From contig NZ_MVOI01000011.1 of assembly GCF_002283555.1 (NCBI RefSeq), positions 1 to 64,000 of the forward strand: a stretch of DNA of 64,000 nucleotides. The letters run 5' to 3'. The notes beneath the pieces are model-generated. The model did no database searches. It saw only the letters and a list, made by a program, of their open reading frames with translations, and was not told the DNA's origin. The stretch comes from Rubrivirga sp. SAORIC476 (lineage in GTDB: Bacteria > Bacteroidota > Rhodothermia > Rhodothermales > Rubricoccaceae). This document shows positions 922 to 16,790 of the stretch, piece after piece. Within the stretch, counting starts at the first letter, position 1. Every line of letters starts with the position of its first letter. Position numbers and translations under genes: made by a program.

Positions 922-931
922 CGCGGGCGCG

Positions 932-1815: not shown

Positions 1816-1830
1816 GTCACCTCCGCTCCC

Positions 1831-2283: not shown

Positions 2284-2284
2284 C

Positions 2285-2413
2285 GCAGAACCCGCGGCTG
2301 CAGGCCGACAACGGGCTCCAGCGCTCTTGCTTCGGCCGGGTCTCGGCGTCTACGTTGCCTTTCTCACCGTTCGCGGTCGCTGCCCGTTGCGGCTGAGCCG
2401 CAAACTGTTCTAC
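2285..2413 (+). repeat. attC site 6
   Basis: R'' is GCAGAAC (2285..2291) and R' is GTTCTAC (2407..2413). The GCGGCTGCAG arm is matched by CTGAGCCGC. The inner arm ACAACGGGC pairs with GCCCGTTG. Confidence 0.93.
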
Positions 2414-2441
2414 GGCGCTCCCGCCAAGGCCGATCGCCCTC

Positions 2442-2813
2442 ATGGCCGTCTACCGAGTCGATGTGCTAGCCGCCGAGCCGCAGCCGGTCTTCGACTGGAT
2501 CAAGGCAAACGTACCCGAGGACCAAGTCGTCCGGGTCGTTGCCTTCGAGTCGGTCAAGGGGCACTACTTCAAGTGCGTCTTCCGGCGACAGTCCGACGCA
2601 GAGTTGTTCAACCGATGGTGGCGTCCCGAGGTGGAGGACCCCACGGTCAACCCCTTCGGTCACGGTCCGTGGCCCACTCCCTCCATCGCCGAACGCCGCG
2701 CCGTAGAACCCACCGCTGCAGGCCGACGAAGGGCGCCAGCGTTCTTGCGCTGGTTTGGCTTCGGCGTCTACGTTGCCCTCACCACCGTTTTGCCGTCGGC
2801 GCTTCGCGGCTGA
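2442..2813 (+). CDS. Cassette 6: hypothetical protein with attC-encoded C-terminal tail
   Basis: The ATG at 2442 opens a 123-residue frame. About the first 85 residues look like an ordinary small soluble protein resembling the ribonuclease-inhibitor or antitoxin size class, with no clear family. The R'' core of attC 7 (GTAGAAC) is not read in a stop frame here. Translation therefore continues through attC and ends at the TGA inside the GCGGCTGAGCGG arm (2811..2813). The last 37 or so residues are thus encoded by the recombination site, and the same kind of tail occurs on the gene at 3562. Confidence 0.7.
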   Translation: MAVYRVDVLAAEPQPVFDWIKANVPEDQVVRVVAFESVKGHYFKCVFRRQSDAELFNRWWRPEVEDPTVNPFGHGPWPTPSIAERRAVEPTAAGRRRAPAFLRWFGFGVYVALTTVLPSALRG

Positions 2814-2830
2814 GCGGTCAACTGTTCGCT
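2703..2830 (+). repeat. attC site 7
   Basis: R'' is GTAGAAC (2703..2709) and R' is GTTCGCT (2824..2830). The inner arm pairs CGAAG/GGCGCC with GGCGC/TTCG with a one-base bulge. The site is translated as the tail of the gene at 2442. Confidence 0.92.
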
Positions 2831-2844
2831 GTACTCCGTCCCGA

Positions 2845-3402
2845 ATGAAATTTGGCTGGCTCGTTCTCGCCCTCTTCGTCTCAGGGTGCGGAGTAGAACC
2901 CACACCAGCACCCGAAGTGGCGCCCGCGGTTGAGCGGTCTACCTCCACCGACCCCGCTCCCTCCGCATCTCCTTCGCCGTCGGTCTACCGCGTCGTCGGC
3001 GACTTCGACGGGGACGGGCGCGACGACTACGCGGTGGGCGAGGCGTGCGGGGTCCACGGGGCGTGCGAGTTCGCGGTCTTCCGGGCCGCACCTGACGGGC
3101 GCCGCCTCGCGGTTGGCTCGGTGCTGGCGACGTACGACGAGATCAGGCTCTGCCCTGGCGAACCGCCCCGCCTCGTCACTACGGTTCGGCAGGGGACAGC
3201 GTACACCCGGGCCGAGTACGTCGTCGGTCTGGACTCGGCCTGGGCTGTCCGAGCGGACACGTCGTCGCTGGAGGGGGGCGGCCCACCCGACTCGTGGTGG
3301 ACACGGGAGTGCTCCGGGGGCTTGGACTTCTACGAGGCGACCGAGGCCGACGTGGACGCGCGAGGGGACTCGGCGTGGCAGCCGGTCGCGTTCCCGTCTT
3401 AG
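2845..3402 (+). CDS. Cassette 7: lipoprotein with FG-GAP/VCBS-like repeat
   Basis: A 185-residue predicted lipoprotein. The start ATG at 2845 gives a signal peptide with lipobox VSGC (Cys about residue 16), followed by a Pro/Ser/Thr-rich linker to about residue 50. The segment VGDFDGDGRDDYAVG that follows matches the calcium-binding FG-GAP/VCBS motif (DxDGDGxxD). The mature protein is probably anchored in a membrane facing the periplasm or cell surface. An upstream in-frame ATG within attC 7 is rejected because it would bury the signal peptide. The stop at 3400..3402 is 18 bases before attC 8. Confidence 0.8.
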   Translation: MKFGWLVLALFVSGCGVEPTPAPEVAPAVERSTSTDPAPSASPSPSVYRVVGDFDGDGRDDYAVGEACGVHGACEFAVFRAAPDGRRLAVGSVLATYDEIRLCPGEPPRLVTTVRQGTAYTRAEYVVGLDSAWAVRADTSSLEGGGPPDSWWTRECSGGLDFYEATEADVDARGDSAWQPVAFPS

Positions 3403-3420
3403 CGCGTTGCCACTCCGTAC

Positions 3421-3549
3421 AGCGAACCCACCGCTGCAGGCCGACCGAGAGGGTCAGCGTTCTCGGCTCGTCCGACCGCCCGCGCAGTCATAGCTTCGTT
3501 CCAACGCTCTGCCCTCACCTCTCGGCGGCTGAGCGGTCAACTGTTCTAC
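3421..3549 (+). repeat. attC site 8
   Basis: R'' is AGCGAAC (3421..3427) and R' is GTTCTAC (3543..3549). The inner arm ACCGAGAGG pairs with CCTCTCGG. ACAGCGAAC exactly complements the start of its own cassette (GTTCGCTGT). Confidence 0.93.
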
Positions 3550-3561
3550 GGCCTCGATCCC

Positions 3562-4101
3562 ATGAGCACTCGAACCTGGGTTGCCGAAGGCTTCCTGAAC
3601 GAACCCGACCGATGGCAGCACGTCGTGGAGTGGGCGCTCCCGCTCGCTGACGCGGTCGAGTTCAACGTCCTGTTCGAAGGCGAGGAGGCGGAGCGGATGG
3701 TCGAGGGCATCGACGCGGCGCCGCAACCGCTGCCGACGGCGAAGCGGATGTACGCGCACAGCCAGCGGCTCCGGTTCGCGCTCACGGACGACCTCCGACG
3801 GCGCCTGCTGTTCGAGCCTTTCATCGGTTGGTACAACGGGCCGCTCGAAGACCCGTCCCTGTGGGCTGGGGACCGGCCGGTCATGGAGACGATCACGCAC
3901 GAGGGGTACGTCTACGCCCGGCTGTCCGAGACCGAGCGTCAGGCCATGCTCGAAGCCGGGATCGACTTCCAGTATGAGGTGCCGGGGGCCGTAGAACCCG
4001 CCGCTGTAGGCCGACGATGGGCGTCAGTGTTCTTGCGCTGGTTCAGGCTCGGCGTCTACGTTGCCCTCACTACCGTTTTGCCCTCAGCCCCTCGCGGCTA
4101 A
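3562..4101 (+). CDS. Cassette 8: hypothetical protein with attC-encoded C-terminal tail
   Basis: ATG at 3562 opens a 179-residue frame. Residues 1 to about 142 are a soluble protein with an alpha/beta composition and no recognised family. From there the frame enters attC 9 without a stop and ends at TAA (4099..4101) inside the GCGGCTAAGCGG arm. The attC-encoded tail shares the pattern VEPAAVGRR, FLRW, GVYVALTTVLPSA with the tail of the gene at 2442. Frame relative to R'' decides whether a cassette gene stops at attC or is extended by it. Confidence 0.7.
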   Translation: MSTRTWVAEGFLNEPDRWQHVVEWALPLADAVEFNVLFEGEEAERMVEGIDAAPQPLPTAKRMYAHSQRLRFALTDDLRRRLLFEPFIGWYNGPLEDPSLWAGDRPVMETITHEGYVYARLSETERQAMLEAGIDFQYEVPGAVEPAAVGRRWASVFLRWFRLGVYVALTTVLPSAPRG

Positions 4102-4118
4102 GCGGCCACTCGTTATAC
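3991..4118 (+). repeat. attC site 9
   Basis: R'' is GTAGAAC (3991..3997) and R' is GTTATAC (4112..4118). The CTGTAGG arm is matched by CTAAGC. The site is translated as the tail of the gene at 3562. Confidence 0.92.
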
Positions 4119-4123
4119 GCCCT

Positions 4124-4690
4124 CTGACTCTGGCTACTGATACCGCATTCCCGCTGCTCGTTCTCGACCTTGACGAGACGTTGCTCCATGCGTCAGAAGC
4201 CCCGCTAGACAGGCCGCCAGATTTCAGACTCGGGCCGTACCACGTCTACGAGCGGCCCCATGTCCGCAACTTCCTCACGGGGGCTTCCGGTTCGTTCCGC
4301 CTTGCCGTTTGGACCTCGGCAACATCGGGCTTTGCGGTCCCGGCCATTCACAGGATCAGACCTCTAGGCGTCAGCTTCGAGTTCGTCTGGACGCGTGAGC
4401 GCTGTACCCGACGCCTTGACATGGAGACGGGCGAGACCGTCTGGGTAAAGGATCTGAAGAAGGTGAAGCGGCGCGGCGACCGTCTCGAACGGGTCTTGAT
4501 GGTGGACGACACGCCCGCGAAGCTGGCGCGGCAGTACGGCAATCTCGTTCGCGTGTCTCCCTACCTCGGGGCCGAGGCGGACGATGAGTTGCCGGACCTG
4601 CTTTCCTACCTTCTGAGCATCCGAGACGAACCAAACTTCCGCCGTATTGAAAAGCGGGGTTGGCGCTCGCAAAAACCGCCGGGCGTATAA
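4124..4690 (+). CDS. Cassette 9: HAD phosphatase of the FCP1/NIF (CTD small phosphatase) type
   Basis: The N-terminus holds LDLDETLLHA, the DxDx(T/V) catalytic signature of HAD phosphatases in the form used by FCP1/NIF-type phosphatases. Farther on, VWTSA and MVDDTPAKL match the second and last HAD motifs. The family hydrolyses phosphoesters, typically phosphoserine, with an aspartyl-phosphate intermediate and Mg2+. The TAA stop at 4688..4690 lies in R'' of attC 10. The start is unclear: there is no ATG, GTG or TTG between R' and the catalytic motif, only CTG at 4124 and 4130. The next upstream candidate is TTG 4061 inside attC 9. I list CTG 4124 tentatively, giving about 188 residues. Confidence 0.8.
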   Translation: MTLATDTAFPLLVLDLDETLLHASEAPLDRPPDFRLGPYHVYERPHVRNFLTGASGSFRLAVWTSATSGFAVPAIHRIRPLGVSFEFVWTRERCTRRLDMETGETVWVKDLKKVKRRGDRLERVLMVDDTPAKLARQYGNLVRVSPYLGAEADDELPDLLSYLLSIRDEPNFRRIEKRGWRSQKPPGV

Positions 4691-4813
4691 CCAGCCGCTG
4701 CAGGCGGACCGAGGGCGCCAGCGTTCTCGCGCTGTTGGAACGGCACCACTTCCAGCGCTCCGGCCTACCTTCTTGCTGTCTGCCCTTGGCCGCTGAGCGG
4801 CCATCCGTTACAC
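4685..4813 (+). repeat. attC site 10
   Basis: R'' is GTATAAC (4685..4691) and R' is GTTACAC (4807..4813). The inner arm ACCGAGGGC pairs with GCCCTTGG. The arm reads GGCGGAC instead of GGCCGAC and the partner is GGCCGCTG. Confidence 0.92.
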
Positions 4814-4822
4814 CGCCTCGCG

Positions 4823-5257
4823 ATGTCGCTCCCGCCACGGGTTCAGAACTCGCTCCGCCTCGGGCGTGATCTCGCAGCGGAAGCGCCGCCCCTTCAGTCG
4901 AAGCGGAAGGCTTGGGTTCACGTCCGGCCTGTGCTCGACGGTCCCGACTTCGATTCGGTTCAGGAGGCCCGGAACCGGGATCGCGTTGGGAAGCGCTACG
5001 ACTCCGTCCCTATCCGCTTCGTCCTCCGTCGCGTCGAGCTGTCGCCGTGGCATCTACAGGAGGAGTGGGCGGACGACCTCGATGTGGCGATGAGCCAACG
5101 ACCGGTCCCGGACGAGACTCGCGTCGTGGACACCGAGGCGGACGTACTCGCCGCGCTGGCGGAGTGGGGCGTGGATCCGGAAGCGCTGCGGCTGCCCGTG
5201 ACCGTTGATTACCCAGAGCCGCCGCCCACGCTCGGCGCCAGCCCGTCGGCGGTGTAA
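4823..5257 (+). CDS. Cassette 10: hypothetical soluble protein
   Basis: A 144-residue protein starting at ATG 4823, ten bases past R', with its TAA stop inside R'' of attC 11. The middle is rich in Arg and acidic residues and the end is Pro-rich. No signal, membrane segment or known motif is seen. A reverse ORF of 81 residues (5053 down to 4808) also has good codon use and stops within R' of attC 10, so a reverse-oriented gene is a real alternative. The forward frame spans the whole cassette, so I prefer it. Confidence 0.55.
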   Translation: MSLPPRVQNSLRLGRDLAAEAPPLQSKRKAWVHVRPVLDGPDFDSVQEARNRDRVGKRYDSVPIRFVLRRVELSPWHLQEEWADDLDVAMSQRPVPDETRVVDTEADVLAALAEWGVDPEALRLPVTVDYPEPPPTLGASPSAV

Positions 5258-5380
5258 CCCGCGGCTGCAGGCCGACGCGGGGCTCTAGCGACCTCGATTC
5301 GTGCGGGCTTCGGCGTCTACATTGCCTCGTCCCACCCTCCCGGCGTCAGCCCCGCGCGGCTGAGCCGCAAACTGTTATGC
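5252..5380 (+). repeat. attC site 11
   Basis: R'' is GTGTAAC (5252..5258) and R' is GTTATGC (5374..5380). The GCGGCTGCAG arm is matched by CTGAGCCGC. The inner arm ACGCGGGGC pairs with GCCCCGCG. Confidence 0.93.
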
Positions 5381-5799
5381 GCCTACTCGTCGTTGTCACC
5401 CTCGCGTTGCTTGGGGTCGCGCCAGCAGCAGCGCAGCAGCCCGTGGAGTCGTGCGGCGCTTGGGGCTCGTTCGACTGGCGGGTTCACTTTGGTTTCGGGT
5501 CGGACGACTTGGTCTACATCCCGGAGTTCATGCCCGAACCGGTTTCGGACGCCCTCCTCTCTCGTGTCCCGCCTCGGGGGGCGCAACCGGAGCCCGAGTC
5601 TTTCTCAATCGCCGTAGCGGTTGTAGACACAGCAGGCGTTGCGACGGACATCGACATCGCGTGCGCTCCTTCTGTGGCGGTCGCGACCGAAGCCGAGTCG
5701 CTAATCCGACGCTCCGAGTTTTCCCCGGCACGAGACCGAGGCCAACCGATCCGGCATTTCGTCGTCGTCCCGCTATTGGCTCCTAAACAGCGCGAATAA
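5377..5799 (+). CDS. Cassette 11: exported protein with TonB C-terminal-like fold
   Basis: A 140-residue protein with a clear Sec signal peptide (hydrophobic to about residue 15, then APAAAQQ). Its last third reads like a TonB_C-type domain: SFSIAVAVVDTAGVATDIDI, then a helix with ESLIRRSEFSPA and RGQPIRHFVVVPLL at the end. The ATG at 5377..5379 is part of the R' core (GTTATGC), so the start codon belongs to the recombination site and travels with the cassette. The mature protein is probably periplasmic. The lipoprotein in the cassette at 9371 has a similar fold. Confidence 0.7.
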   Translation: MRLLVVVTLALLGVAPAAAQQPVESCGAWGSFDWRVHFGFGSDDLVYIPEFMPEPVSDALLSRVPPRGAQPEPESFSIAVAVVDTAGVATDIDIACAPSVAVATEAESLIRRSEFSPARDRGQPIRHFVVVPLLAPKQRE

Positions 5800-5806
5800 C
5801 GCTACG

Positions 5807-5937
5807 GCGCATAACTCGCGGCTGCAGGCCGACAACGGGCTCCAGCGCTCTCGCTTCGTCCGTGCCTCGGCGTCTACGTTGCCCTTCCTACCATCCGCGG
5901 TCGCTGCCCGTTGCGGCTGAGCCGCAATTTGTTACAC
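5807..5937 (+). repeat. attC site 12
   Basis: R'' is GCATAAC (5807..5813) and R' is GTTACAC (5931..5937). The inner arm ACAACGGGC pairs with GCCCGTTG. The GCGGCTGCAG arm is matched by CTGAGCCGC. Confidence 0.92.
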
Positions 5938-5949
5938 CGCCCCTCGCAC

Positions 5950-6390
5950 GTGTCTGATCGGCTCCTCGCTGCTGCTCTCTTCGGCGGAGCCGCTTGCCTG
6001 CTCGCCGTCGGTTTCTGGGCCGTCTTCTGGGCTGACGTCGCGGCGTTCGGGGCCGCTGTCGGCGTTCCCGCTGCGGCCGTCATCGGTGCGCTCGCGGCTC
6101 CCCGTCTCGCCGCTCACGCTGCCACGTCCAGCGGCCCTACGCGGGCGGCCCGGGACGGGGCGGCCGTTGCGATCTGGGCCTACGTGCTCGGAGCGTTCGC
6201 GCTCGCGGTGTTCGTGGCGGTTACGGATGGTATTGGGTTTGGCGGGATCGTCCGAGGCTTCGCGCTCGGCCTCCTGTTCTCTCTCGGCTACGGTGCCATC
6301 GCGCTCGTTCCAGCACTCATTCTCGGGGCCGGGGCCGGGTGGCTGTTCTACGTCCTCAGGACGAACGCCTCGCCCGCCGGGGCGGTGTAA
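5950..6390 (+). CDS. Cassette 12: hypothetical membrane protein
   Basis: A 146-residue, strongly hydrophobic protein with four likely membrane spans (about residues 6-30, 32-50, 72-92 and 108-137). It is rich in Ala and Gly. The start chosen is GTG 5950, 13 bases past R'. The frame also opens farther back in attC 12, but those residues would not belong to the cassette. The TAA stop is within R'' of attC 13. No family is recognised. Confidence 0.7.
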   Translation: MSDRLLAAALFGGAACLLAVGFWAVFWADVAAFGAAVGVPAAAVIGALAAPRLAAHAATSSGPTRAARDGAAVAIWAYVLGAFALAVFVAVTDGIGFGGIVRGFALGLLFSLGYGAIALVPALILGAGAGWLFYVLRTNASPAGAV

Positions 6391-6513
6391 CCCGCGGCTG
6401 CAGGCCGACCCAGGGCTCCAGCGTCCTCGGCTCGTCCGGGCGCCAGCGCTACTTTCGGCTCGTTTTACCATCGCGGTCGCTGCCCTGGGCGGCTGAGCCG
6501 CAAACTGTTCTAC
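6385..6513 (+). repeat. attC site 13
   Basis: R'' is GTGTAAC (6385..6391) and R' is GTTCTAC (6507..6513). The inner arm ACCCAGGGC pairs with GCCCTGGG. The GCGGCTGCAG arm is matched by CTGAGCCGC. Confidence 0.93.
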
Positions 6514-6535
6514 CGCGCCGTCGATTGGAAGGCCG

Positions 6536-6760
6536 GTGGGGTGGGGCACCGAAGCCCGCGCCAGCGATCCGCTCGGGGAAGTCCGCGCTCGACTGGCGAT
6601 TGGTTTCGATGTCGTCGGTGCCGCTCGGGAGCGCCGCCAGCGCGGCGAGAACTCCGTTCCGGTCTGGGTCGGAGAGATGAGCGGAGGGTGCCACGCGGTG
6701 GGTCCGGTGTCTGCGCTTCGGATGTCGCTTGCGGTGGCCCGTCGGTGTGTGGCGCGGTAG
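6536..6760 (+). CDS. Cassette 13: small ORF, strand uncertain
   Basis: The cassette has about 245 bases outside its attC. Forward, GTG 6536 opens a 74-residue frame whose TAG stop (6758..6760) lies in R'' GTAGAAC of attC 14. In reverse, ATG 6694 opens a frame containing LSDPDRNGVLAALAALPSG that looks equally protein-like. That frame runs out into attC 13 and stops at 6449. Both have high-GC third positions. I cannot decide between them from sequence alone, and neither product is recognised. Confidence 0.35.
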   Translation: MGWGTEARASDPLGEVRARLAIGFDVVGAARERRQRGENSVPVWVGEMSGGCHAVGPVSALRMSLAVARRCVAR

Positions 6761-6884
6761 AACCCACCGCTGCAGGCCGACGAAGGGCGCGAGCGTCGTT
6801 GCCTTTTTGGGAGGTCACAGCGTACGTTGCTCGTCCATACCTCGCGCCGTGAGCCCTTCGCGGCTGAGCGGCCAACTGTTATGC
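6757..6884 (+). repeat. attC site 14
   Basis: R'' is GTAGAAC (6757..6763) and R' is GTTATGC (6878..6884). The inner arm ACGAAGGGC pairs with GCCCTTCG. Confidence 0.92.
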
Positions 6885-6909
6885 CGCAGGTCCTAAGCCG
6901 CCGCCCACT

Positions 6910-7236
6910 TTGATCTTCCGCGTCTTCGGATTCGCCTTCGCTCACTTCGTCTTACAGCTCGGCGTTTTCGCCATCACCTTCGCGCTCGGCATGGGCAGGT
7001 TCGACACGGGGGAGTCAGCGGGACTATTCGAGAAAGCGCTGGGTGGAGTCTCGGATCTCCTAATGCTGCCGCTCGCTCTCCCGCTCGTTCACTGGTGGCC
7101 GTTCGGCGCGACAGGATTCCCGCTCGAACACCTTCCCTTCATCCTCAACAGCCTCCTCTGGGGAGTGGGTTTAGCGTACTTGTGGCGCTGGAAGAGAGGC
7201 ACCCCCGACGCTTCTCCTCAACCGCCTGCGGCATAA
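6910..7236 (+). CDS. Cassette 14: small hydrophobic membrane protein
   Basis: A 108-residue membrane protein starting at TTG 6910. Hydrophobic stretches lie at about residues 3-24, 47-65 and 75-93, followed by a short basic/Pro-rich cytoplasmic tail. The aromatic-rich pattern (PLVHWWPFG, LLWGVGLAYLWRWKRG) resembles small integral-membrane proteins of unknown function. The TAA stop lies in R'' of attC 15. Confidence 0.7.
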   Translation: MIFRVFGFAFAHFVLQLGVFAITFALGMGRFDTGESAGLFEKALGGVSDLLMLPLALPLVHWWPFGATGFPLEHLPFILNSLLWGVGLAYLWRWKRGTPDASPQPPAA

Positions 7237-7359
7237 CCCGCCGCTGTAGGCCGACGAAGGGCTTTCGGGTTCTCGCTTCTCCATGAGTTTGGTGTTTCTG
7301 GTGATCGTTCCAATCGTCGTGCCGTCAGCCCTTCGCGGCTAAGCGGCCTTCTGTTATAC
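7231..7359 (+). repeat. attC site 15
   Basis: R'' is GCATAAC (7231..7237) and R' is GTTATAC (7353..7359). The CTGTAGG arm is matched by CTAAGC. The inner arm ACGAAGGGC pairs with GCCCTTCG. Confidence 0.93.
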
Positions 7360-7387
7360 GGCCACCCCGAACCTGATCGCCCTACCG

Positions 7388-7759
7388 ATGGACCTCTCTG
7401 TCATCTGCCGTGACTGCAAGGAACCGTCTCGGGTTAAGGAGAACGCCCGGGACCGCTTAGTCCTGTCGAAGTCGCTGGGCCGGGAGTTCCAGCACCGGTG
7501 TGAGAAGTGCGGTGGCCGGGCGACGTACCACATTGACGATGTGACCGCATCGGCAGCACGGACGAAGCTCTATGGTCTGGTCGCCGCTGTCGCCGTCGCT
7601 GGCGTGGCGACGGTCGTGCTCTGGAACCTCGGCTGGGTCAGCACGCTCACCTTCATCCTGTTCGGCGGGATCTACTTCGCGATCCAGCAGGGCGCTGAGA
7701 CTAAGGCGAAGGCGTTCAATAGCTACAAGCTCGGCCGGTCCCCTAAGGTGGCCGTATAA
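7388..7759 (+). CDS. Cassette 15: zinc-ribbon membrane protein
   Basis: A 123-residue protein with an N-terminal zinc ribbon: two Cys pairs, ICRDC (about residues 7-10) and RCEKCGG (about 38-41). Two membrane spans follow (about 61-80 and 84-100) and a basic C-terminal tail. It would sit in the inner membrane with the ribbon in the cytoplasm. Start ATG 7388; the TAA stop lies in R'' of attC 16. The domain layout is clear, but I know no assigned function. The zinc ribbon could bind nucleic acid or a partner protein. Confidence 0.8.
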   Translation: MDLSVICRDCKEPSRVKENARDRLVLSKSLGREFQHRCEKCGGRATYHIDDVTASAARTKLYGLVAAVAVAGVATVVLWNLGWVSTLTFILFGGIYFAIQQGAETKAKAFNSYKLGRSPKVAV

Positions 7760-7882
7760 CTCGCCGCTGTAGGCCGACACGGGGCATCAGCGTCTTCGGC
7801 TCGTCCGAGCTTCAGTGCTCCAGTAGCTTCGGCCCACTGTCCTGCCCTCAGCCCCGTGCGGCTAAGCGGCCACCTGTTCTAC
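7754..7882 (+). repeat. attC site 16
   Basis: R'' is GTATAAC (7754..7760) and R' is GTTCTAC (7876..7882). The CTGTAGG arm is matched by CTAAGC. The inner arm ACACGGGGC pairs with GCCCCGTG. The 13 bases ending R'' exactly complement the start of its cassette. Confidence 0.94.
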
Positions 7883-7892
7883 CGCGCTCCCA

Positions 7893-8549
7893 ATGGCACG
7901 AGAAAGAAGTCGCCCTCGATCTCATGAGCAGCCAGACGAGGGCGAAGTAGAGTCGCTGGAATTCGCATTCCAGCACAGTCACGACGGAGTGCCTACGGAT
8001 CAGCGAGACAGCGCTGAGGAGCCAACTCATCCATTCGGAGAGCTGACACCATTCATAGGTCTTGAAAACCATGCCGTGCTAGCGGAAGACAATCCAGTGC
8101 TGACCGAGTTGAAAGACGACTTTGAGGCGATCATTGCCGACTTCAACAAGCTCAATATGTCCATCGTCAACCGCTACATTCCGAACGATCCCGGCAGAAA
8201 GGAAGGCAGGACTTACGAGCATCTCTCCCGAAAGGTAGACGCACTCCAAATGAGAATGCTCGAATGGCGAGCGGCAGCGTTTCGGTACATGAGCGCCCCC
8301 AACATCGTCGTCGCCTCAATTGGCGAGTCTGACCGCGACATGGTGCTACTGCTTGAAAACCGAGCCCTGAACCTGATTACCACCCTGCGAAGCGACCTGT
8401 CGATCTACCAGTCAACGCTCGCTAGCAATCACCAAATCATGGTCTCGACGGCGGTGGCTAATAAGAGCTTTACCGTAGCAATGAGGGCTTACTACATCAC
8501 GGCGGCAGGGCTCGTAGCTGCTGTGATTGGAATCCTGATGGCTCTTTAA
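7893..8549 (+). CDS. Cassette 16: hypothetical tail-anchored membrane protein
   Basis: A 218-residue protein: an acidic, His-containing N-terminal region to about 65, a long helical region rich in Leu, Arg and Glu (about 75-190, probably coiled coil), and one C-terminal membrane span (about 197-217) ending at the stop. This layout suggests a tail-anchored inner-membrane protein facing the cytoplasm. Codon use is less GC-biased than in neighbouring cassettes, hinting at recent import. The stop TAA at 8547..8549 lies 24 bases before R'' of attC 17. No family is recognised. Confidence 0.75.
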   Translation: MARERSRPRSHEQPDEGEVESLEFAFQHSHDGVPTDQRDSAEEPTHPFGELTPFIGLENHAVLAEDNPVLTELKDDFEAIIADFNKLNMSIVNRYIPNDPGRKEGRTYEHLSRKVDALQMRMLEWRAAAFRYMSAPNIVVASIGESDRDMVLLLENRALNLITTLRSDLSIYQSTLASNHQIMVSTAVANKSFTVAMRAYYITAAGLVAAVIGILMAL

Positions 8550-8573
8550 GAACCCAGCTCCGGCCACCGCGCG

Positions 8574-8701
8574 GTAGAACCCACCGCTGCAGGCCGACCC
8601 CAAGCGCCAGCGCTTTCAGTTCCGCCAGCCGTCGGGGTATCCTGCGCTTCGCCCCACCCGCCAGCCCTCAGCTTGGGGCGGCTGAGCGGTCAATGTTACA
8701 C
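8574..8701 (+). repeat. attC site 17
   Basis: R'' is GTAGAAC (8574..8580) and R' is GTTACAC (8695..8701). The inner arm ACCCCAAGC pairs with GCTTGGGG. One C before GTT is missing compared with sister sites (CAATGTT for CAACTGTT), which creates an ATG across the crossover point. Confidence 0.92.
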
Positions 8702-9247
8702 CGCCTCGCATCGTCCCGTTTGCCGAACGTCGAGCCAGAGTCGATTCTAGAGGCCGTCGTCCTTCGAGGCGGCGCCCCGACCCTTGAGCAACTGGCGGGA
8801 CCTGAACCTGGCCGCGCGCTTCTCGACCCAACCACGCTCGGCAGCAGGCTCACTAGCCGAAGACTCGAAGCGTGTGGCTACGAACTGATGTTCTGGGACC
8901 TCAGGCTGGACGGTGATTCGGTCTCATCGGTAGACGTTCAATTCCGCCGCCCCTCTGGCTTCTCGGCGCTGCTCTGGAGCCCAAACCGAAAGCTCCTGGC
9001 GCGATTGAGGAAATGGGCTGACGGGAACCTCGGACGGCTCTCGTGCCACCGGGTCTCCGGCGGTGACGGTGTACAGTACCACTACGGGGCGTCTCGCAAC
9101 TTCGCCCCTATGACTGCGCTTGATAGGTGGGACAGCCAGTTCGCTATCGTCGAGGAGCGCCATTCGTCGGGGCAAGTCTCGGAACGGTCAACCTCTACTC
9201 GGAACGACTTTGTGATCGTCCGCTTTCGCAGACCCCCGGCGGTGTAA
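8693..9247 (+). CDS. Cassette 17: hypothetical soluble protein
   Basis: An open frame of 184 residues with no signal or membrane segment. The ATG at 8693..8695 straddles the attC crossover point: its G is the G of GTTACAC. It therefore exists only because of a one-base deletion in the upstream attC. The first start fully inside the cassette is TTG 8720 (175 residues). Helical N-terminal half and a beta-rich C-terminal half ending FVIVRFRRPPAV. The TAA stop lies in the altered R'' GTGTAAT. The family is unknown. Confidence 0.65.
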   Translation: MLHRLASSRLPNVEPESILEAVVLRGGAPTLEQLAGPEPGRALLDPTTLGSRLTSRRLEACGYELMFWDLRLDGDSVSSVDVQFRRPSGFSALLWSPNRKLLARLRKWADGNLGRLSCHRVSGGDGVQYHYGASRNFAPMTALDRWDSQFAIVEERHSSGQVSERSTSTRNDFVIVRFRRPPAV

Positions 9248-9366
9248 TCCGCGCTTGCAGGCCGACCGCACGCTCCGGCGTCGTTGCCTCGTCTAAGCGT
9301 CAGCGTATCCTTCGCCTCGTCTCACCGCCCCGCCGCGTGCGGCGGCTGAATCGCAAATCGTTAGCT
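9242..9366 (+). repeat. attC site 18
   Basis: R'' is GTGTAAT (9242..9248), the only complete site lacking the final C of AAC. R' is GTTAGCT (9360..9366). The GCGCTTGCAGG arm faces CTGAATCGC. The inner arm ACCGCACGC pairs with GCGTGCGG. Confidence 0.9.
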
Positions 9367-9370
9367 GCCT

Positions 9371-9808
9371 ATGCAAGGCCTCGCTCGTCTCGCGCTCACT
9401 TCTCTCCTCGTGGCCTTGGCGGCCGGGTGCGACTCCCAGCCTAGCCCAGACGTGGTGTATTCGCTCGACGAGGTCGCCATGAGACCGACCCCTCTCATCG
9501 GATGGTCGACCGCCGCCCTCCTCTACGACTACCCCGAGTTCGCCAGTCGTGCAGGGATCGACGGCGCGGTACGGGTATCCGTCGTGGTCGGGCCGGACGG
9601 CACGAGCCAAGACCCGAGGATCGAGTCGAGCCCCAACGAGCTCCTCAGCGAACACGCCCTCGCGACGGTACGGGCGTTGGTGTGGGAGCCCGGCGAAGTG
9701 AACGGAGCGGCCGTGCGGGTCCGTGGTGACGTCTGCGTACGGTACGAGTTGGAGGGCACGGGGGTCGAGGCCGTGGGGAGCACCGTGTTCGGGTGGTGCG
9801 GCAGCTAA
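9371..9808 (+). CDS. Cassette 18: lipoprotein with TonB C-terminal-like domain
   Basis: A 145-residue predicted lipoprotein with signal peptide and lipobox LAAGC (Cys about residue 20). The mature part follows the TonB_C pattern: a YPEFASRAGIDGAVRVSVVV strand pair with a glycine turn, then VGPDGTSQDPRIESS, a helix with HALATVRALVWEPGEVNG and a final beta strand. Such free-standing domains resemble the C-terminal part of energy-transducing TonB but lack the membrane anchor and Pro-rich arm. Start ATG 9371, right after R'. The TAA stop lies in R'' of attC 19. Confidence 0.75.
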   Translation: MQGLARLALTSLLVALAAGCDSQPSPDVVYSLDEVAMRPTPLIGWSTAALLYDYPEFASRAGIDGAVRVSVVVGPDGTSQDPRIESSPNELLSEHALATVRALVWEPGEVNGAAVRVRGDVCVRYELEGTGVEAVGSTVFGWCGS

Positions 9809-9930
9809 CCAGCCGCTGTAGGCCGACCGGGGGCGCCAGCGTTCTTGGCTCGGCCAAGCAGCGGCGTCTACTTTCGCTCGTCTACCCGCCGCGCCGCCAG
9901 CCCCGGCGGCTAAGCGGCCATCCGTTCTGC
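9803..9930 (+). repeat. attC site 19
   Basis: R'' is AGCTAAC (9803..9809) and R' is GTTCTGC (9924..9930). The CTGTAGG arm is matched by CTAAGC. The ten bases ending R'' exactly complement the start of the cassette (GTTAGCTGCC). Confidence 0.93.
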
Positions 9931-9952
9931 GGCCTCGAACGCCTCGCCATCT

Positions 9953-10450
9953 GTGACTGTCAGGATCGCCCCCGCACAAGGCTCCATCGTTGAAGTCGGC
10001 AGCGAGGCTGTCCGGTTCACCGATGCGGAAGGGAATTCTGGTGTCGCGAACCTCCGCCCGCTCCGACCAGAGTCGCGGAAGATCGTCGGAGAGCACAACT
10101 TGAAGGAGACGCCGTGTTGGGTACAACTCGACGGCGTCCGCTTCGAGTTCGAGACCCGCAAGTCTGCTTATGAGGAGCTTGTCGATCCGATGCTCCGACT
10201 CGACCGCCACACGCGCAAAGGACGGAGGTTCGCGCGGTCAGAAGGCAAGCTCTTGATCCCGGCGGACAGCCGCTGGAATCACGCCCTGTTGGCCGTCGCG
10301 ATCTGTTTGGTCGTGCTGACGGGGCTGCTGGCGGTGCTGACGGACCAATGGTGGGCGATATGGCTCGCCGTCGCCGCGCTGCTTCGGGCGGCATACGACG
10401 GGGTGGTTCACCTGAAGAAGAAGTGGGACGGCAAGAGCGGGGTTCTCTGA
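9953..10450 (+). CDS. Cassette 19: hypothetical membrane protein
   Basis: A 165-residue protein starting at GTG 9953. The N-terminal 100 or so residues are a soluble, beta-rich domain. Two close membrane spans follow (about residues 107-127 and 130-148), then a basic tail. It would be an inner-membrane protein with the large domain in the cytoplasm by the positive-inside rule. The stop TGA at 10448..10450 lies 16 bases before R'' of attC 20. No family is recognised. Confidence 0.7.
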   Translation: MTVRIAPAQGSIVEVGSEAVRFTDAEGNSGVANLRPLRPESRKIVGEHNLKETPCWVQLDGVRFEFETRKSAYEELVDPMLRLDRHTRKGRRFARSEGKLLIPADSRWNHALLAVAICLVVLTGLLAVLTDQWWAIWLAVAALLRAAYDGVVHLKKKWDGKSGVL

Positions 10451-10466
10451 CTCCTTGCTCAGGGCC

Positions 10467-10595
10467 GCAGAACCCGCGGCTGCAGGCCGACGCGGGGCTC
10501 CAGCGTTCTCAACTCCAGCGGGCATCGGCGTCTACATTGCCTCGTCCCACCCTCACGGCGTCAGCCCCACGCGGCTGAGCCGCAAACTGTTACAC
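10467..10595 (+). repeat. attC site 20
   Basis: R'' is GCAGAAC (10467..10473) and R' is GTTACAC (10589..10595). The GCGGCTGCAG arm is matched by CTGAGCCGC. The inner arm pairs apart from one mismatch. Confidence 0.92.
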
Positions 10596-10631
10596 CGCCA
10601 GCCCGAACCGTTGTCGCTCAGTAACGATCTG

Positions 10632-10820
10632 ATGTACGGGGTCCTCGCAATCGTGGTCGGTCTGGCACCACTCGCATATATCGTCTTTCGATTCCTGAGA
10701 GCAGCGTTCCGGTACGACCCGCAGGACCGTAGGAAAGCGGGAGACCTGGCAGCAGACTTCTACCGCTTGATCATTGGAGGTCTGGTCCTAGCGGCCTGGG
10801 GAGTGACGCAGATTCCGTAG
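10632..10820 (+). CDS. Cassette 20: small two-span membrane protein
   Basis: A 62-residue hydrophobic protein from ATG 10632, or 69 residues from TTG 10611. Membrane spans lie at about residues 2-20 and 43-59, separated by a charged loop containing DPQDRRKAGD. Both ends would be on the same side. The stop TAG at 10818..10820 is 15 bases before the R'' region. Small two-span proteins are common in integron cassettes. The function is unknown. Confidence 0.6.
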   Translation: MYGVLAIVVGLAPLAYIVFRFLRAAFRYDPQDRRKAGDLAADFYRLIIGGLVLAAWGVTQIP

Positions 10821-10841
10821 CCGCACACGCACACGCTGGCG

Positions 10842-10970
10842 GTGTAACTCGCCGCTGCAGGCCGACGATAGGCTCTAGCGTTCTTGGCTTCGGCGGGGCT
10901 CGGCGCTTACGTTGCCCGTCCCGACCGCCAGCGCCTCAGCCTCTCGCGGCTGAGCGTCCAACTGTTATGT
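10842..10970 (+). repeat. attC site 21
   Basis: R'' is GTGTAAC (10842..10848) and R' is GTTATGT (10964..10970). CTGGCGGTGTAAC complements the 13 bases starting its own cassette. It opens the large ParB/Dam cassette. Confidence 0.93.
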
Positions 10971-11060
10971 GGAGCACCGACCGCCTGCGCTTCATGCTAA
11001 TTCGGTTGGCCATATGAGTGTAGCTTTAGCCAGAGCCATTGCCTCTCCCCCCTCCGTCCG

Positions 11061-12407
11061 ATGAGCACTCTACCGTCCCTGAAAATCATCGATGTCCATC
11101 AGTTGCTCTTGGATGTTGAGAATCCCAGGTTACCCGCTCACGCCCCTGACCAGCCTAGCACTATCCAGGCCATGGCGGGAACCCAGGGGAAGAATTTGGT
11201 CGGAATGGCAGAGCACATCTTGGAGCACGGTCCCAGCCCTGCTGACCTGCCAATTGTCATGCCTGCGGCAAACGGCAGCTACATAGTTCTTGATGGCAAC
11301 AGGAGGCTAACAGCCCTAAAGGCTTTGGAGAGTCCGAGCCTGATCGACGGCGCGGTTCCTTCGGCTGTCCTTAAGCAAATCAAGGAACTGTCGAAGCAGT
11401 ACCACAAGAATCCTGTAGACAGCCTCCGTTGTTTCGTGGCCGCTGACCGTGTTGAGGCCGACCCATGGATTCAGAATCGGCACAGGGGGCTGCGCGGAGG
11501 TTCTGGTCTCGACGAATGGGACGGATACGTAGCTGCTCGTTACGACGCCTTGACTGGCGACAAGTCAATAGCGCTCCAGGTAATTGACTTTGTGACTGGT
11601 CAATCCAAGCTCTCCGAAAAGTCCCTTACTCGTATTCGCTCAGGGAAATTCCCTGTAACGACACTAGAGCGCATACTGAAGACGCCGTATGTGCGAAGCA
11701 AGCTAGGTTTTGACATCAAGAAGGGAGATGTTACGACACAGCTGCCGACTAGCGAAGTCGTCAAAGGATTGGCAAGGATAGTGGAGGATGTTGGATCTGG
11801 TGACGTGACCGTCACAGATGTCAAGAAGGTGGATCAAAGGATAAAATATGTAGACAGTTTTGTAAAGGAGGATTTGCCTGATCTCACGAAGTCATCTGGC
11901 AAGCCTAGGCCTGTTGATGAAGAGCCCCCGATAGCAAAGAAGAAACGCAAGCGCCCTCAGCCTAAGCCCCGGACCAGAACGACTCTCATCCCTCCTGGCC
12001 TCAGCACTGGAATCTCTCAGCACCGAATCCAGGCGATAGCCGAGGAGTTACAGTCCCTCAACGCTGACAAGCACCCAAACGCGGCGGCGGTGATGATGCG
12101 AGTCCTCATTGAGTTGAGCCTTGACCACTTCCTAGAGCAAACCGCTGGCTGGTCTGAACAGAAGGTGGACGGCTCCCACCTGGCCCAAAAGCTGACGGCG
12201 GCTGCGAATCACTTGAAGCAGTCCGGCGCCATGTCAGATCAACAGCTTGCGCCAGTGAAAAAGGCCGCTGCAGGTCAGACCCTTCTCGCCGCTTCGATCA
12301 GGACCATGCACGGGTACGTCCACAATCGCTATTTTTCAGCTGTGGCCTCGGAGCTGAAGACGGCATGGGATGACCTCCAAATGTTCATGACCAAAATCTG
12401 GTCTTAG
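11061..12407 (+). CDS. Cassette 21a: ParB/Srx-fold nuclease-like protein
   Basis: A 448-residue protein. The N-terminal third follows the ParB/sulfiredoxin fold: VHQLLLDVENPRLP near the start, then LPIVMPAANGSYIVLDGNRR (about 66-85), the GxxR core that binds nucleotide in this superfamily. The middle (about 280-310) is a Lys/Arg/Pro-rich linker. The C-terminal domain (about 315-448) is helical, with AAAVMMRVLIELSLDHFLEQ and a conserved-looking MHGYVHNRYFSA. I infer a defence role because it shares one cassette with a DNA adenine methylase 33 bases downstream, like a nuclease/methylase pair. Base composition is AT-richer than neighbouring cassettes. Confidence 0.75.
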   Translation: MSTLPSLKIIDVHQLLLDVENPRLPAHAPDQPSTIQAMAGTQGKNLVGMAEHILEHGPSPADLPIVMPAANGSYIVLDGNRRLTALKALESPSLIDGAVPSAVLKQIKELSKQYHKNPVDSLRCFVAADRVEADPWIQNRHRGLRGGSGLDEWDGYVAARYDALTGDKSIALQVIDFVTGQSKLSEKSLTRIRSGKFPVTTLERILKTPYVRSKLGFDIKKGDVTTQLPTSEVVKGLARIVEDVGSGDVTVTDVKKVDQRIKYVDSFVKEDLPDLTKSSGKPRPVDEEPPIAKKKRKRPQPKPRTRTTLIPPGLSTGISQHRIQAIAEELQSLNADKHPNAAAVMMRVLIELSLDHFLEQTAGWSEQKVDGSHLAQKLTAAANHLKQSGAMSDQQLAPVKKAAAGQTLLAASIRTMHGYVHNRYFSAVASELKTAWDDLQMFMTKIWS

Positions 12408-12440
12408 GCCAAATTATCCAGCGATGCGCTCGCTAAAATC

Positions 12441-13334
12441 ATGTCCCATTTTCTTTCTCCGCTCAGATATCCCGGCGGCAAACGTAAACTTTCTAACTTT
12501 GTCAAACTAGTTTACAGACAAAACAACCTCTTGGGAGGTATTTATGCCGAGCCCTATGCAGGCGGCGCAGCGGTTGCGCTATCACTTTTATTTGGAGAAT
12601 ATGCGAGAAATGTATATATAAATGATATTGACAGGTCAATTTATGCTTTCTGGAAATCTGTATTGGACCATACTGATGAGCTGTGTCGACGCATTGACAT
12701 GGCCGAGGTCTCAGTCGAGGAATGGGAGCGACAGCGATCCGTCCAAGATGCCGAAAGCCCATCGCTAGCCGACCTTGGGTTTTCAACATTTTATCTTAAC
12801 AGGACCAATAGATCTGGAATAATCAGGGGCGGCGTTATCGGGGGCAGGGAGCAAGATGGGGACTGGAAGATTGATGCCAGATTTAATAAGGCCGATCTGA
12901 TCAAGCGCATCAAGAAGATAGCTCGGTACAAAAGCCGCATCACACTGTCCAATCTCGATGCGACGATCTTCTTAGAAGGCCTTCGTCCTGTCCTTGATAG
13001 CACATCGCTTGTGTATCTCGATCCTCCCTATTATGTCAAGGGAGGTGATCTCTATGAAAACCATTACCGTCACGAGGACCACGAGCTGATTGCTAGGCTT
13101 ATCATGTCTTTCGAAACACCGTGGCTTGTCACTTACGATGATGTGAAACCGATTTGTGATATGTATCTCGATTCGCCGAGTCTCAATTATGGACTTAGTT
13201 ATTCGGCGCAGGACAGGTACAAGGGCTCGGAGGTGATGTTTTACTCTGACGGGCTATTGCTTCCTGAGGTTGAGGACCCCGCCCGGATTCGTAAACAGGA
13301 TTTCAATGTGCTGCAGAAAGAGATGCAATTCTAG
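12441..13334 (+). CDS. Cassette 21b: DNA adenine methylase (Dam/M.DpnII type, D12 class)
   Basis: A 297-residue N6-adenine methyltransferase of the D12 class (PF02086). RYPGGKRKL near the N-terminus and AEPYAGGAAVALSLL (about 32-46) form the AdoMet-binding motif. LVYLDPPYYVKGGDLYE (about 191-207) holds the catalytic DPPY motif. Length matches the family. The target site cannot be predicted from sequence here. The gene is notably AT-rich for this window and follows the ParB-like gene in one cassette, so the two probably form one transcription unit. It may protect host DNA from its partner or mark it. Confidence 0.9.
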   Translation: MSHFLSPLRYPGGKRKLSNFVKLVYRQNNLLGGIYAEPYAGGAAVALSLLFGEYARNVYINDIDRSIYAFWKSVLDHTDELCRRIDMAEVSVEEWERQRSVQDAESPSLADLGFSTFYLNRTNRSGIIRGGVIGGREQDGDWKIDARFNKADLIKRIKKIARYKSRITLSNLDATIFLEGLRPVLDSTSLVYLDPPYYVKGGDLYENHYRHEDHELIARLIMSFETPWLVTYDDVKPICDMYLDSPSLNYGLSYSAQDRYKGSEVMFYSDGLLLPEVEDPARIRKQDFNVLQKEMQF

Positions 13335-13353
13335 TCGCAATATTGCCAGCTCC

Positions 13354-13482
13354 ACATAACCCGCGGCTGCAGGCCGACCCAGGGCTCCAGCGTCCTCGAC
13401 TCGTCCGGGCGTCGGCACTACCTTTGCCTCGTTCAACCATCGCGGTCGCTGCCCTGAGCGGCTGAGCCGCAAACTGTTATGC
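13354..13482 (+). repeat. attC site 22
   Basis: R'' is ACATAAC (13354..13360) and R' is GTTATGC (13476..13482). GCTCCACATAAC complements GTTATGTGGAGC at 10964, showing that the 2.5-kb two-gene segment is one cassette. Confidence 0.94.
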
Positions 13483-13504
13483 CGCACTCCCACCCCTTCT
13501 CCTC

Positions 13505-13918
13505 ATGCCGGTAACGATCTCGTACGACCTCCGCGAGGTCACCAACAACCAACGCACGTATATCCGTAGCATGTTGGAGCGCTTCAACTGGAAGCGTTTG
13601 GGCGGGAGTGTTTTCCGCTACGACGGCGTCCTGCAAGAGGACGGAACCCTATATGAGGACTGGTTCAACCATGTTGTACCGTCCCTAATGTTCATGCGTT
13701 CGTACGCTCTAGCAAACGATATTCAGATTCGGTTCTTTACTCTAGATGCTGCTGGAAACACCTTCATCGATCTGAGCGATGAGGACCTTCCCTACGGTGA
13801 GTCGCCCACGGATGGACCCAATCTCCCGCTCGTAGAGCCGACGAATGTTCAATCAGCGGTTGGGACTATTCGCGATTTTGTAGATGCAGCTACCAACTCT
13901 GCTAACGGTGCGGCATAA
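13505..13918 (+). CDS. Cassette 22: possible Cas2/VapD-fold protein
   Basis: A 137-residue protein. The N-terminal half reads VTISYDLR, a helix with YIRSMLERFNWKRL, then GGSVFRYDG. This order (strand ending YDL, helix, Gly-x-Ser-Val-Phe strand) resembles the ferredoxin fold of Cas2 and VapD ribonucleases, where the first Asp is a metal or catalytic residue. The C-terminal half is acidic with no match. The resemblance is from pattern only; no search was possible. Start ATG 13505; the TAA stop lies in R'' of attC 23. Confidence 0.65.
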   Translation: MPVTISYDLREVTNNQRTYIRSMLERFNWKRLGGSVFRYDGVLQEDGTLYEDWFNHVVPSLMFMRSYALANDIQIRFFTLDAAGNTFIDLSDEDLPYGESPTDGPNLPLVEPTNVQSAVGTIRDFVDAATNSANGAA

Positions 13919-14041
13919 CCCACCGCTGCAGGCCGACAGCACGCGCGGGCGTTCTTGCCTCGTCCGAACAACGGCGTATCCTGCGGCTCGTCCTACCCGC
14001 CAGTCGTCAGCGTGCTGCGGCTGAGCGGTCAACTGTTAGCA
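13913..14041 (+). repeat. attC site 23
   Basis: R'' is GCATAAC (13913..13919) and R' is GTTAGCA (14035..14041). The inner arm ACAGCACGC pairs with GCGTGCTG. Confidence 0.93.
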
Positions 14042-14063
14042 CGCTGCCTCTCGCACCGAACCT

Positions 14064-14474
14064 CTGGCTCGTTTCGTCCTCACCTTGCTTGCCTTCTGCG
14101 GGCTCTGCGCTTGCGGCGATCCCGACCCGGAGTGCAAGCGGGTCGCCGGGCTGATCCAACAGTGCAACGTCTATGATGACCGCGCGCACGAGGTCTACGT
14201 TGCTGGGACCGTAGACGCACCGCCGTCGCAGGACTACATCCGCCTGCTGGCTCGGGGCGTGACTGGCGGGCCGAACGTGGTCGCCGTCGATACGTGCGGA
14301 GCGAGGAAGCGGGTGTACCTGCTGGAAGGGTTGTTCGACGTCGACACGACGGCGGCGCCGTTCGACGTGGAAGACATGACGGGCAACTTCGCGGGGACCC
14401 GGGAGTCAGTCTTCGCCAAGCGCGACAGCCTATTCGCGGCCCGACCGTCGTGCTTCGTCCGAGACGAGCGGTGA
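14064..14474 (+). CDS. Cassette 23: lipoprotein, probable CTG start
   Basis: Reading from CTG 14064 gives a 136-residue protein with a textbook lipoprotein signal: LARFVLTLLAFCGLCACGDP, lipobox LCAC. An in-frame TAG at 14037 closes the frame upstream and no ATG, GTG or TTG lies between it and TTG 14085. That TTG would cut the signal peptide to under ten hydrophobic residues with no basic N-terminus. CTG initiation is therefore the best reading. The mature part is a small soluble domain with cysteines that could pair, probably periplasmic. The function is unknown. Confidence 0.65.
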   Translation: MARFVLTLLAFCGLCACGDPDPECKRVAGLIQQCNVYDDRAHEVYVAGTVDAPPSQDYIRLLARGVTGGPNVVAVDTCGARKRVYLLEGLFDVDTTAAPFDVEDMTGNFAGTRESVFAKRDSLFAARPSCFVRDER

Positions 14475-14505
14475 GTGCGCTCGCGCTCCGTCCAGCCGGG
14501 CAGCG

Positions 14506-14634
14506 TGCTAACCCGCGCTTGCAGGCCGACCGTGAGGGTCAGCGCTCTCGGCTCGTCCAAACGTCGCCGCATTCAAAGCTTCGTCCCACCGCTGTGCCGT
14601 CACCTCTCGGCGGCTGAATCGCCATCCGTTATGC
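14506..14634 (+). repeat. attC site 24
   Basis: R'' is TGCTAAC (14506..14512) and R' is GTTATGC (14628..14634). GGCAGCGTGCTAAC exactly complements the 14 bases that start its own cassette (14035). The GCGCTTGCAGG arm faces CTGAATCGC. Confidence 0.94.
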
Positions 14635-14653
14635 GCCTACCGAACCGATAGCG

Positions 14654-15223
14654 ATGTCCGAAGAGACGCAGCATCTTGTCAAGGCGCTTCGCCGCATCAG
14701 AGAGAAGCCGCTCGATTCGACAGATGATCTGGCGGTTCGGAGGGGTGAGTTCGTGAGTGTGCTGAACAGGATCTATGGCCCCGGAAGTCCGCAGGAGCAG
14801 CAGGTCAATCGAATCAAGTACTACCGACGGGTGGGCTCGGGATCGATTAGCATGGGCGGTGCGGTCAGCGGCTTTGCGGTCTCCGAAAACTTTGCGGAGT
14901 GCAAGAAGCGACTCCACGGGCTGATCGACGGCGCGGTTGAGGAACTAGAATCCTTGGGCCTCCCTACTAAGCCGTCACCCGCGAGCAGTGGCCTGAGCGT
15001 CTCAGTAAACCAAACCGTGAACCTCAACGTCGTGATTGAGGCTGTCAAGGACGAGTTGACTGGTCAGCAGCTGAAAGAGCTAAGAGAGGCTCTTTCCGAG
15101 CCGGGCACGCCTGAGCAGAAACGGTCCAGGGTGCTGGAAAAGGCCAAGTCGTTTGGTAGTGACGTGGCGTCAAACATCCTTGCCGGCATCATCACTAACC
15201 CTCAGATTTTAGGCTCCATATAG
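14654..15223 (+). CDS. Cassette 24: hypothetical protein, last cassette of the array
   Basis: A 189-residue soluble protein. The first 95 or so residues are helical and charged. A short Ser-rich linker follows, then SVSVNQTVNLNVVIEAVKDE (about 116-135), a helical stretch and a C-terminal glycine/alanine segment. The layout resembles small helical proteins often seen next to defence genes, but I assign no family. It lies in the most distal cassette, whose attC is truncated at 15248, so this cassette probably can no longer be excised. Confidence 0.7.
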   Translation: MSEETQHLVKALRRIREKPLDSTDDLAVRRGEFVSVLNRIYGPGSPQEQQVNRIKYYRRVGSGSISMGGAVSGFAVSENFAECKKRLHGLIDGAVEELESLGLPTKPSPASSGLSVSVNQTVNLNVVIEAVKDELTGQQLKELREALSEPGTPEQKRSRVLEKAKSFGSDVASNILAGIITNPQILGSI

Positions 15224-15231
15224 TCAACGGC

Positions 15232-15248
15232 GCATAACCCGCCGCTGC
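15232..15248 (+). repeat. attC site 25, truncated; end of array
   Basis: R'' GCATAAC (15232..15238) and the first bases of the left arm are present. Then the sequence changes abruptly into dehydrogenase coding sequence. No L' or R' follows, marking the distal breakpoint of the integron. Confidence 0.88.
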
Positions 15249-16632: not shown

Positions 16633-16790
16633 GCCGGTGTGTAGGCGAGAGCCTCACAATGCCGCAGACCCCGCCGCTGCCGACCGACGCCACGCGTGAG
16701 CGTCCTCGTCACGCCTTGGCTTCTGTATTGTCGGATGCGGTCCGCCAGTGGGTAGCGCGCCTCGGCACCGGCGCGCGCCGCCCGAACATC

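Follow-up and report, generated by a model that had tools for sequence, protein, structure and literature searches.

What is the gene pair carried by the one long cassette of an integron array in Rubrivirga sp. SAORIC476, and does it represent a new system? The locus was analyzed within a stretch of 64,000 nucleotides (the window) that forms the start of contig C11. The initial annotation had regarded the pair, a ParB-like protein and an adenine methylase, as a candidate new defence system. We find that it is very probably an anti-phage unit, and a known system rather than a new one. Our main reading, to which we assign as a whole a probability of about 0.6, is that a complete PD-λ-5 system sits in a single integron cassette and would act by methylation-gated abortive cleavage of RNA.

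The cassette and its array

The array spans window positions 1-15238. It comprises 24 full cassettes with closely similar attC sites, which are placed between positions 132 and 15238 and have a median length of 454 bp. An attC covariance model was built from 23 of the sites in the window. The following features delimit the cassette of interest.

10837..10974, + strand: upstream attC site, from repeat families and the covariance model (120.8 bits); R' GTTATG at 10964
10964..13360, + strand: two-gene integron cassette, 21st of 24, from R' to its own R'', 2397 bp
10964..11060, + strand: leader before gene A, 97 bases, longer than the leaders of neighbouring cassettes 18-24
13349..13486, + strand: attC site of cassette 21 itself (covariance model, 136.1 bits); R'' at 13358, next R' at 13476

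The R' repeat GTTATG that ends the upstream attC site also supplies the first bases of cassette 21, and the limits originally proposed, 10964-13360, run exactly from the R' to the R'' repeats. With its own attC site included, the inserted unit extends to about 13476. The two flanking sites fit the covariance model with E-values of about 1e-29 to 1e-34, both having belonged to the set from which the model was built. The start of the cassette, GTTATGTGGAGC, is the reverse complement of its end, GCTCCACATAAC, at 12 of 12 bases, and the best other cassette end pairs at 6. Because the start pairs with its own end, both genes would excise together as a single unit; flanking attC sites and start-end pairing together identify cassette 21 as an integron cassette.

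The physical features noted from the letters alone were all reproduced. Cassette 21 is the only one above 705 bp, the length of the next largest, and was rightly singled out as the only large cassette of about 2.4 kb. Its two genes lie on the same strand, exactly 33 bases apart (12408-12440). They are also richer in AT than their surroundings: GC content is 54.3% for gene A, 47.1% for gene B and 51.6% for the cassette, the window as a whole having 66.2%. Such a difference suggests that they were acquired from elsewhere. Cassette 22 is likewise AT-rich (53.4% GC).

Contig C11 belongs to a genome of 4.48 Mb in 19 contigs. Across this genome the covariance model found 44 attC matches, 41 of them above 70 bits, spread over several arrays. 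At least 15 further strong sites lie on contigs C2, C3, C9, C12 and C15 and at the end of C11, several of them at contig ends; the genome therefore has more cassette arrays than the one at the start of C11. Past the last clear cassette, positions 16659-16782 of the window give a weak, degenerate attC match (21 bits, E 0.008), perhaps a decayed array end. A putative integron-type integrase, a tyrosine recombinase of 336 aa (G000:C4:236-1246), adjoins gyrA at the extreme start of contig C4 and points inwards; its class was assigned solely from the expected Pfam domains and an integron-type insert seen by eye. Facing this way, it could continue into the C11 array, the two lying on separate contigs in the assembly.

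Two neighbouring cassettes are worth recording. Cassette 22 (13505-13918) encodes a protein of 137 aa whose N-terminus weakly resembles Cas2 (PADLOC E 1e-3, Pfam E 0.03), and Cas2-like RNases have been mentioned in integron cassettes (PMC3710099). The protein encoded by cassette 18 (9371-9808) ends in a TonB-type domain (Pfam E 2e-15) and has an apparent lipoprotein-type N-terminus.

Identity and linkage of the two genes

The genes of cassette 21 and the catalytic motif of the methylase are as follows.

11061..12407, + strand: gene A (PD-Lambda-5_A), 448 aa; PADLOC PDLC03998, E 8e-134; BLASTP to the A protein of an E. coli P2 prophage, E 7e-42
12441..13334, + strand: gene B (PD-Lambda-5_B), 297 aa, D12-class N6-adenine DNA methylase; PADLOC PDLC04018, E 6.6e-120; Pfam PF02086, E 4e-16
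13020..13031, + strand: catalytic DPPY motif (residues 194-197 of B), unchanged in all 13 relatives compared

Both proteins match the PADLOC models of PD-λ-5 end to end; for A, residues 7-447 of 448 align with model positions 4-464 of 466. The same pair, in the same order, occurs in a P2-like prophage of E. coli strain EC6622 (L200), in the P2 hotspot flanked by the genes for the replication endonuclease and the portal protein. This prophage pair, which may not be the copy cloned in 2022, matches the same PADLOC models. Identity to it is 25% for A (BLASTP, E 7e-42) and 50% for B (E 2e-100). The cassette thus combines full-length homology of A, a B protein with intact D12 motifs, and adjacent, co-directional genes in the order A then B. 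Judged by this homology, the pair is almost certainly PD-λ-5.

PD-λ-5 was recovered by functional phage selection in E. coli, which it protects from phages (Vassallo et al. 2022, PMC9519451). The novelty first claimed for the pair is accordingly lost: the initial annotation knew of no named system with just this pair, and PD-λ-5 is named for the same pair and is included in PADLOC. The system was assayed in a host lacking the mrr region (PMC9519451), which would be consistent with an active adenine methylase. Since then it has been recorded from Actinobacteria, Vibrio and Pseudomonas, where it lies in prophages and islands. We found no worked-out mechanism for PD-λ-5 in the literature.

The assignment of B as a D12 adenine methylase, made at the outset, is borne out by the Pfam match and the intact DPPY motif. 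The PLRYPGGK motif is intact as well, and B is the only D12 methylase found in the host genome.

Recurrence of the pair elsewhere had been proposed as a check, and the pair recurs widely. Among 111 strong relatives of B whose surroundings were uncut, A was adjacent in 87 and an OLD/RecF-type ATPase took its place in 20; these and the following counts are of records, redundant sequences included, and not of independent events. For the best 80 relatives in bacterial and archaeal genomes, A was adjacent in 62 (59 in the order A then B), the ATPase in eight and neither in four, with six cut by a contig end. On 38 viral contigs with a B protein of at least 180 bits, A was found in 25 and the ATPase in 12, with one cut. 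These viral relatives were found with a methylase alignment, a viral scan with a single window protein having given no match. Distant D12 methylases had A beside them in none of 42 cases, nine of which lay near a contig end. In the host phylum nearly every full-length A, found independently, is adjoined by B. The range of the pair includes Bacteroidota, Proteobacteria, Chloroflexi, Actinobacteria, archaeal bins and others.

The alternative partner is an AAA_15/AAA_21 protein of ~570 aa, OLD/RecF-like and resembling PtuA, GajA and AriA, for which PADLOC gave no full-length name. It accompanies about a fifth of PD-λ-5_B-type methylases, as at the following loci.

L086:5253-7855, L115:3166-5855, L195:3992-6704 (E. 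coli 042), L199:1722-4361 and L201:3144-5704: ATPase plus methylase

E. coli also has this variant, located in at least one case (E110019) at that same P2-prophage hotspot. Searches of E. coli DNA with the Yokenella and Providencia pairs led, in the regions read, to the ATPase-plus-methylase variant. The combination resembles a second system of two genes, with the methylase in common.

Some further relatives depart from the common arrangement. At L008/L043 (G179, Roseithermus sacchariphilus) and L007 (G089), a frameshift or stop breaks A into two frames next to a methylase that seems intact; perhaps A is the first to be lost and B persists, or the breaks are sequencing errors. Escherichia phage vB_EcoM-12474III, considered as a source of PD-λ-5, was rejected for its different arrangement of a 372 aa ParB-N protein, a 330 aa protein and a cytosine-type methylase. 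In this P2-type phage (L196:3992-7028), the 372 aa protein matches only the ParB part of A, and the methylase is Druantia-DruM-like and on the opposite strand. The locus, in the hotspot beside the portal gene, is perhaps a split cousin of PD-λ-5. The 330 aa protein has no HEPN match, so a tie to the MAE_28990 loci discussed below is unsupported.

Fold of protein A and a proposed mechanism

Protein A was modelled with AlphaFold2 (mean pLDDT 91.6). Its predicted domains and nucleotide-binding motif are as follows.

11061..11540, + strand: ParB/Srx NTPase-fold domain of A, about residues 1-160 (structure prediction)
11295..11306, + strand: GNRR motif (residues 79-82 of A), corresponding to the P-motif GxxR of ParB/Srx folds; unchanged in all 54 homologues compared
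12009..12404, + strand: HEPN-fold domain of A, about residues 317-448 (domain model, structural matches)

Residues 1-160 align with CTPγS-bound ParB (7bnr) at Z 9.8, with an rmsd of 2.2 over 93 aligned residues. This region also matches sulfiredoxin (Srx), SbnI, SspE (Z 5.5) and BrxU (Z 4.1). In the predicted structure both the fold and the GxxR P-motif are present, which places the N-terminus of A in the ParB/Srx (ParB-CTPase) fold. Nucleotide-binding residues in the ParB-like fold had been named as a point to check, and the invariant GNRR motif provides them. The C-terminal domain, modelled alone, has a pLDDT of 91.8. Its top 19 structural matches are all HEPN or HEPN-like/MNT-associated (Z 6.7-8.5), among them the AbiA and HepT toxins, and the first unrelated row stands at Z 5.7. 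Since helical bundles score easily, the unbroken run of HEPN names carries more weight than the Z value. The C-terminus of A is thus, as modelled, a HEPN helical bundle. Structure prediction therefore supports the original description of a ParB/Srx fold followed by a helical C-terminus, and identifies the helical part. No sequence profile scored above its curated cut-off for HEPN or ParB in A, both assignments being made from predicted fold only. Likewise, no Pfam ParB or HTH domain matched, and a search of solved structures with a profile of A gave nothing credible.

HEPN is the fold of abortive-infection RNases. All 54 homologues share the GNRR motif, W153, R347 and H421 of A without change; R347 (12099-12101) and H421 (12321-12323) both lie in the HEPN domain, on different helices. 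The canonical HEPN motif Rx4-6H is not conserved, being present in the last 60 residues of eight of the 54 homologues, and the arginine at -7 from H421 is variable. By sequence, the putative HEPN active site of A is therefore non-canonical. Any RNase activity would have to draw on R347 from a separate helix; alternatively, the domain may lack activity. HEPN families that retain the histidine while the basic residue shifts are on record (PMC3710099).

From these observations we propose a restriction-modification scheme whose "restriction" step would be abortive RNA cleavage. B would methylate adenines (6-methyladenine) at a short motif across the host chromosome as a mark of self. A would be the effector, its ParB/Srx domain binding nucleotide and sensing the state of DNA and its HEPN domain remaining a latent RNase, inactive on methylated DNA. 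Entry of unmethylated phage DNA, or a phage block of methylation, would switch the state of A. The HEPN domain would then cut RNA, and the infected cell would arrest or die before phage release. For the HEPN-RNase mechanism as such, we put the odds at even or slightly better.

One competing account leaves the PD-λ-5 assignment intact and has A restrict DNA directly, in the style of SspE or GmrSD/BrxU: the ParB/Srx domain or the middle region would nick phage DNA in a modification- and NTP-dependent manner, and the HEPN domain would only dimerise. SspE and BrxU, DNA-targeting defence enzymes with ParB/Srx-type domains, are indeed among the structural matches, DNA nicking by ParB/Srx proteins is on record (cited in PMC12839542), and the Rx4-6H motif is unconserved. 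However, GNRR is a nucleotide-binding motif and not a nuclease motif. In a search for the DNA endonuclease of a classical type II restriction-modification pair, no nuclease domain was matched in A by Pfam, and no HNH or PD-(D/E)XK fold was found among the better structural matches, which barely cover residues about 167-316. Mere dimerisation, moreover, would not need the invariant H421 and R347. We therefore consider direct restriction unlikely. The initial description of the ParB-like domain as nuclease-like is unproven; the HEPN domain is the better candidate for a nuclease, and its substrate would be RNA, not DNA. The pair could also be an addiction cassette akin to a toxin-antitoxin system, with A toxic unless B keeps the host DNA methylated, so that loss of the cassette would kill the cell and stabilise the array, phage defence being secondary. 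Toxin-antitoxin cassettes stabilise large integrons, A and B are strongly linked, and A has close structural matches among the HEPN toxins of MNT-HEPN toxin-antitoxin pairs. Restriction-modification systems are addictive too, so addiction does not separate both readings; as the principal role it seems quite improbable. A role outside defence, as a ParB-like partition or regulatory protein with an epigenetic methylase, is highly implausible. Among solved structures the N-terminus comes closest to chromosome-partition ParB proteins, but a ParB of a ParABS partition system was rejected because the cassette holds only A and B, with no ParA gene, and A has no match to Pfam ParB or the ParB HTH domain. 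The C-terminal HEPN fold and the homology to a tested defence system also speak against it.

A separate question, compatible with our preferred explanation of gene function, is whether the cassette is expressed in its present position. At least 20 cassettes lie upstream of it in the array, and its expression there would depend on either an internal promoter or a move, by shuffling, closer to the promoter of the integron. Cassettes distant from the promoter are frequently poorly expressed (PMC12409362), and a scan of the 97-base leader found no sigma-70-type promoter, though promoters of the host phylum may not fit such a scan. The PD-λ-5 genes could accordingly be stored intact and silent, making no contribution until shuffled forward. 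The leader nevertheless has room for a promoter, both frames are intact and the key residues are conserved. On balance, a silent cassette is possible but rather doubtful. Within the leader, positions 10967-11017 form an open frame of 16 codons, MWSTDRLRFMLIRLAI, which opens 3 bases into the cassette and closes 43 bases short of gene A. It could be due to chance or be a translation leader of the kind that some integron cassettes are known to have.

Our view of the cassette as a compact, mobile, modification-linked defence unit agrees with that first proposed. Going further, we tentatively suggest that PD-λ-5 may be an RNA-cutting restriction-modification system, in which an adenine methylase, instead of an antitoxin protein, would serve as the self-marker restraining a ParB/Srx-gated HEPN RNase with a non-canonical R347 and H421 site. 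Integrons would spread this "methylate or die" module as a single cassette, and the same methylase family, guarding an unrelated OLD/RecF-type ATPase, would be a general self-marker for interchangeable killers.

Relation to known systems

What is new here is the carrier of PD-λ-5, an integron cassette; PD-λ-5 itself and the role of integrons as stores of anti-phage genes are already known. In the accessible parts of the literature, no report tying PD-λ-5 to an integron was found. A figure of the 2022 paper may already contain the HEPN assignment. No other copy in an integron was found among about 90 relatives with the attC model and an inverted-repeat test, the model being host-specific and liable to miss divergent attC sites. 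An experimentally proven anti-phage system, hitherto from prophages and genomic islands, thus turns up in an integron cassette, and in a lineage whose integron-borne defence genes have received little study. The idea of integrons as defence libraries would extend to a two-gene, methylation-based system. The cassette home and the HEPN domain are clues to how PD-λ-5 spreads and works. The invariant R347 and H421 in the HEPN fold make its mechanism open to cheap mutational testing. In addition, the partner swap on the methylase (A or the ATPase) suggests that self-marking and killing are separable modules.

Defence genes within integron cassettes, as here, have been described as anti-phage cassettes (Darracq 2025, Kieffer 2025, Getz 2025; PMC12409362), and Xanthomonas integrons carry known defence genes. 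The accessible parts of the 2025 sources concern Vibrio rather than Rhodothermales and do not name PD-λ-5. They describe cassette defence genes as streamlined to fit, among them type II and type IV restriction genes in shortened form (PMC12409362). Streamlining of A was considered and rejected: at 448 aa it is below the median of its relatives (469), yet five of 53 are shorter, so its length is not exceptional.

SspE, GmrSD and BrxU resemble A in joining an N-terminal NTP-binding ParB/Srx fold (or DUF262-type domain) to an effector domain, with a link to DNA modification (PMC10952713). They differ in that the effector of A is HEPN, not HNH or DUF1524, and the cassette partner would make 6-methyladenine, not phosphorothioate; no sequence profile was found in common with A. 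In MAE_28990-type loci, genes for a HEPN protein, a DNA methylase and a ParB nuclease are arranged as an operon (Anantharaman et al. 2013, PMC3710099). Compared by description only, these loci unite the same three functions in one operon; HEPN and ParB are separate genes there, whereas they are fused in one protein here. PD-λ-5 of E. coli shares with the cassette both families, their order and strand and the invariant motifs, and both proteins align end to end. The two differ in setting, an integron cassette here and a prophage hotspot in E. coli, in the length of A (448 aa against 501 aa), and in sequence, with identities of only 25% for A and 50% for B.
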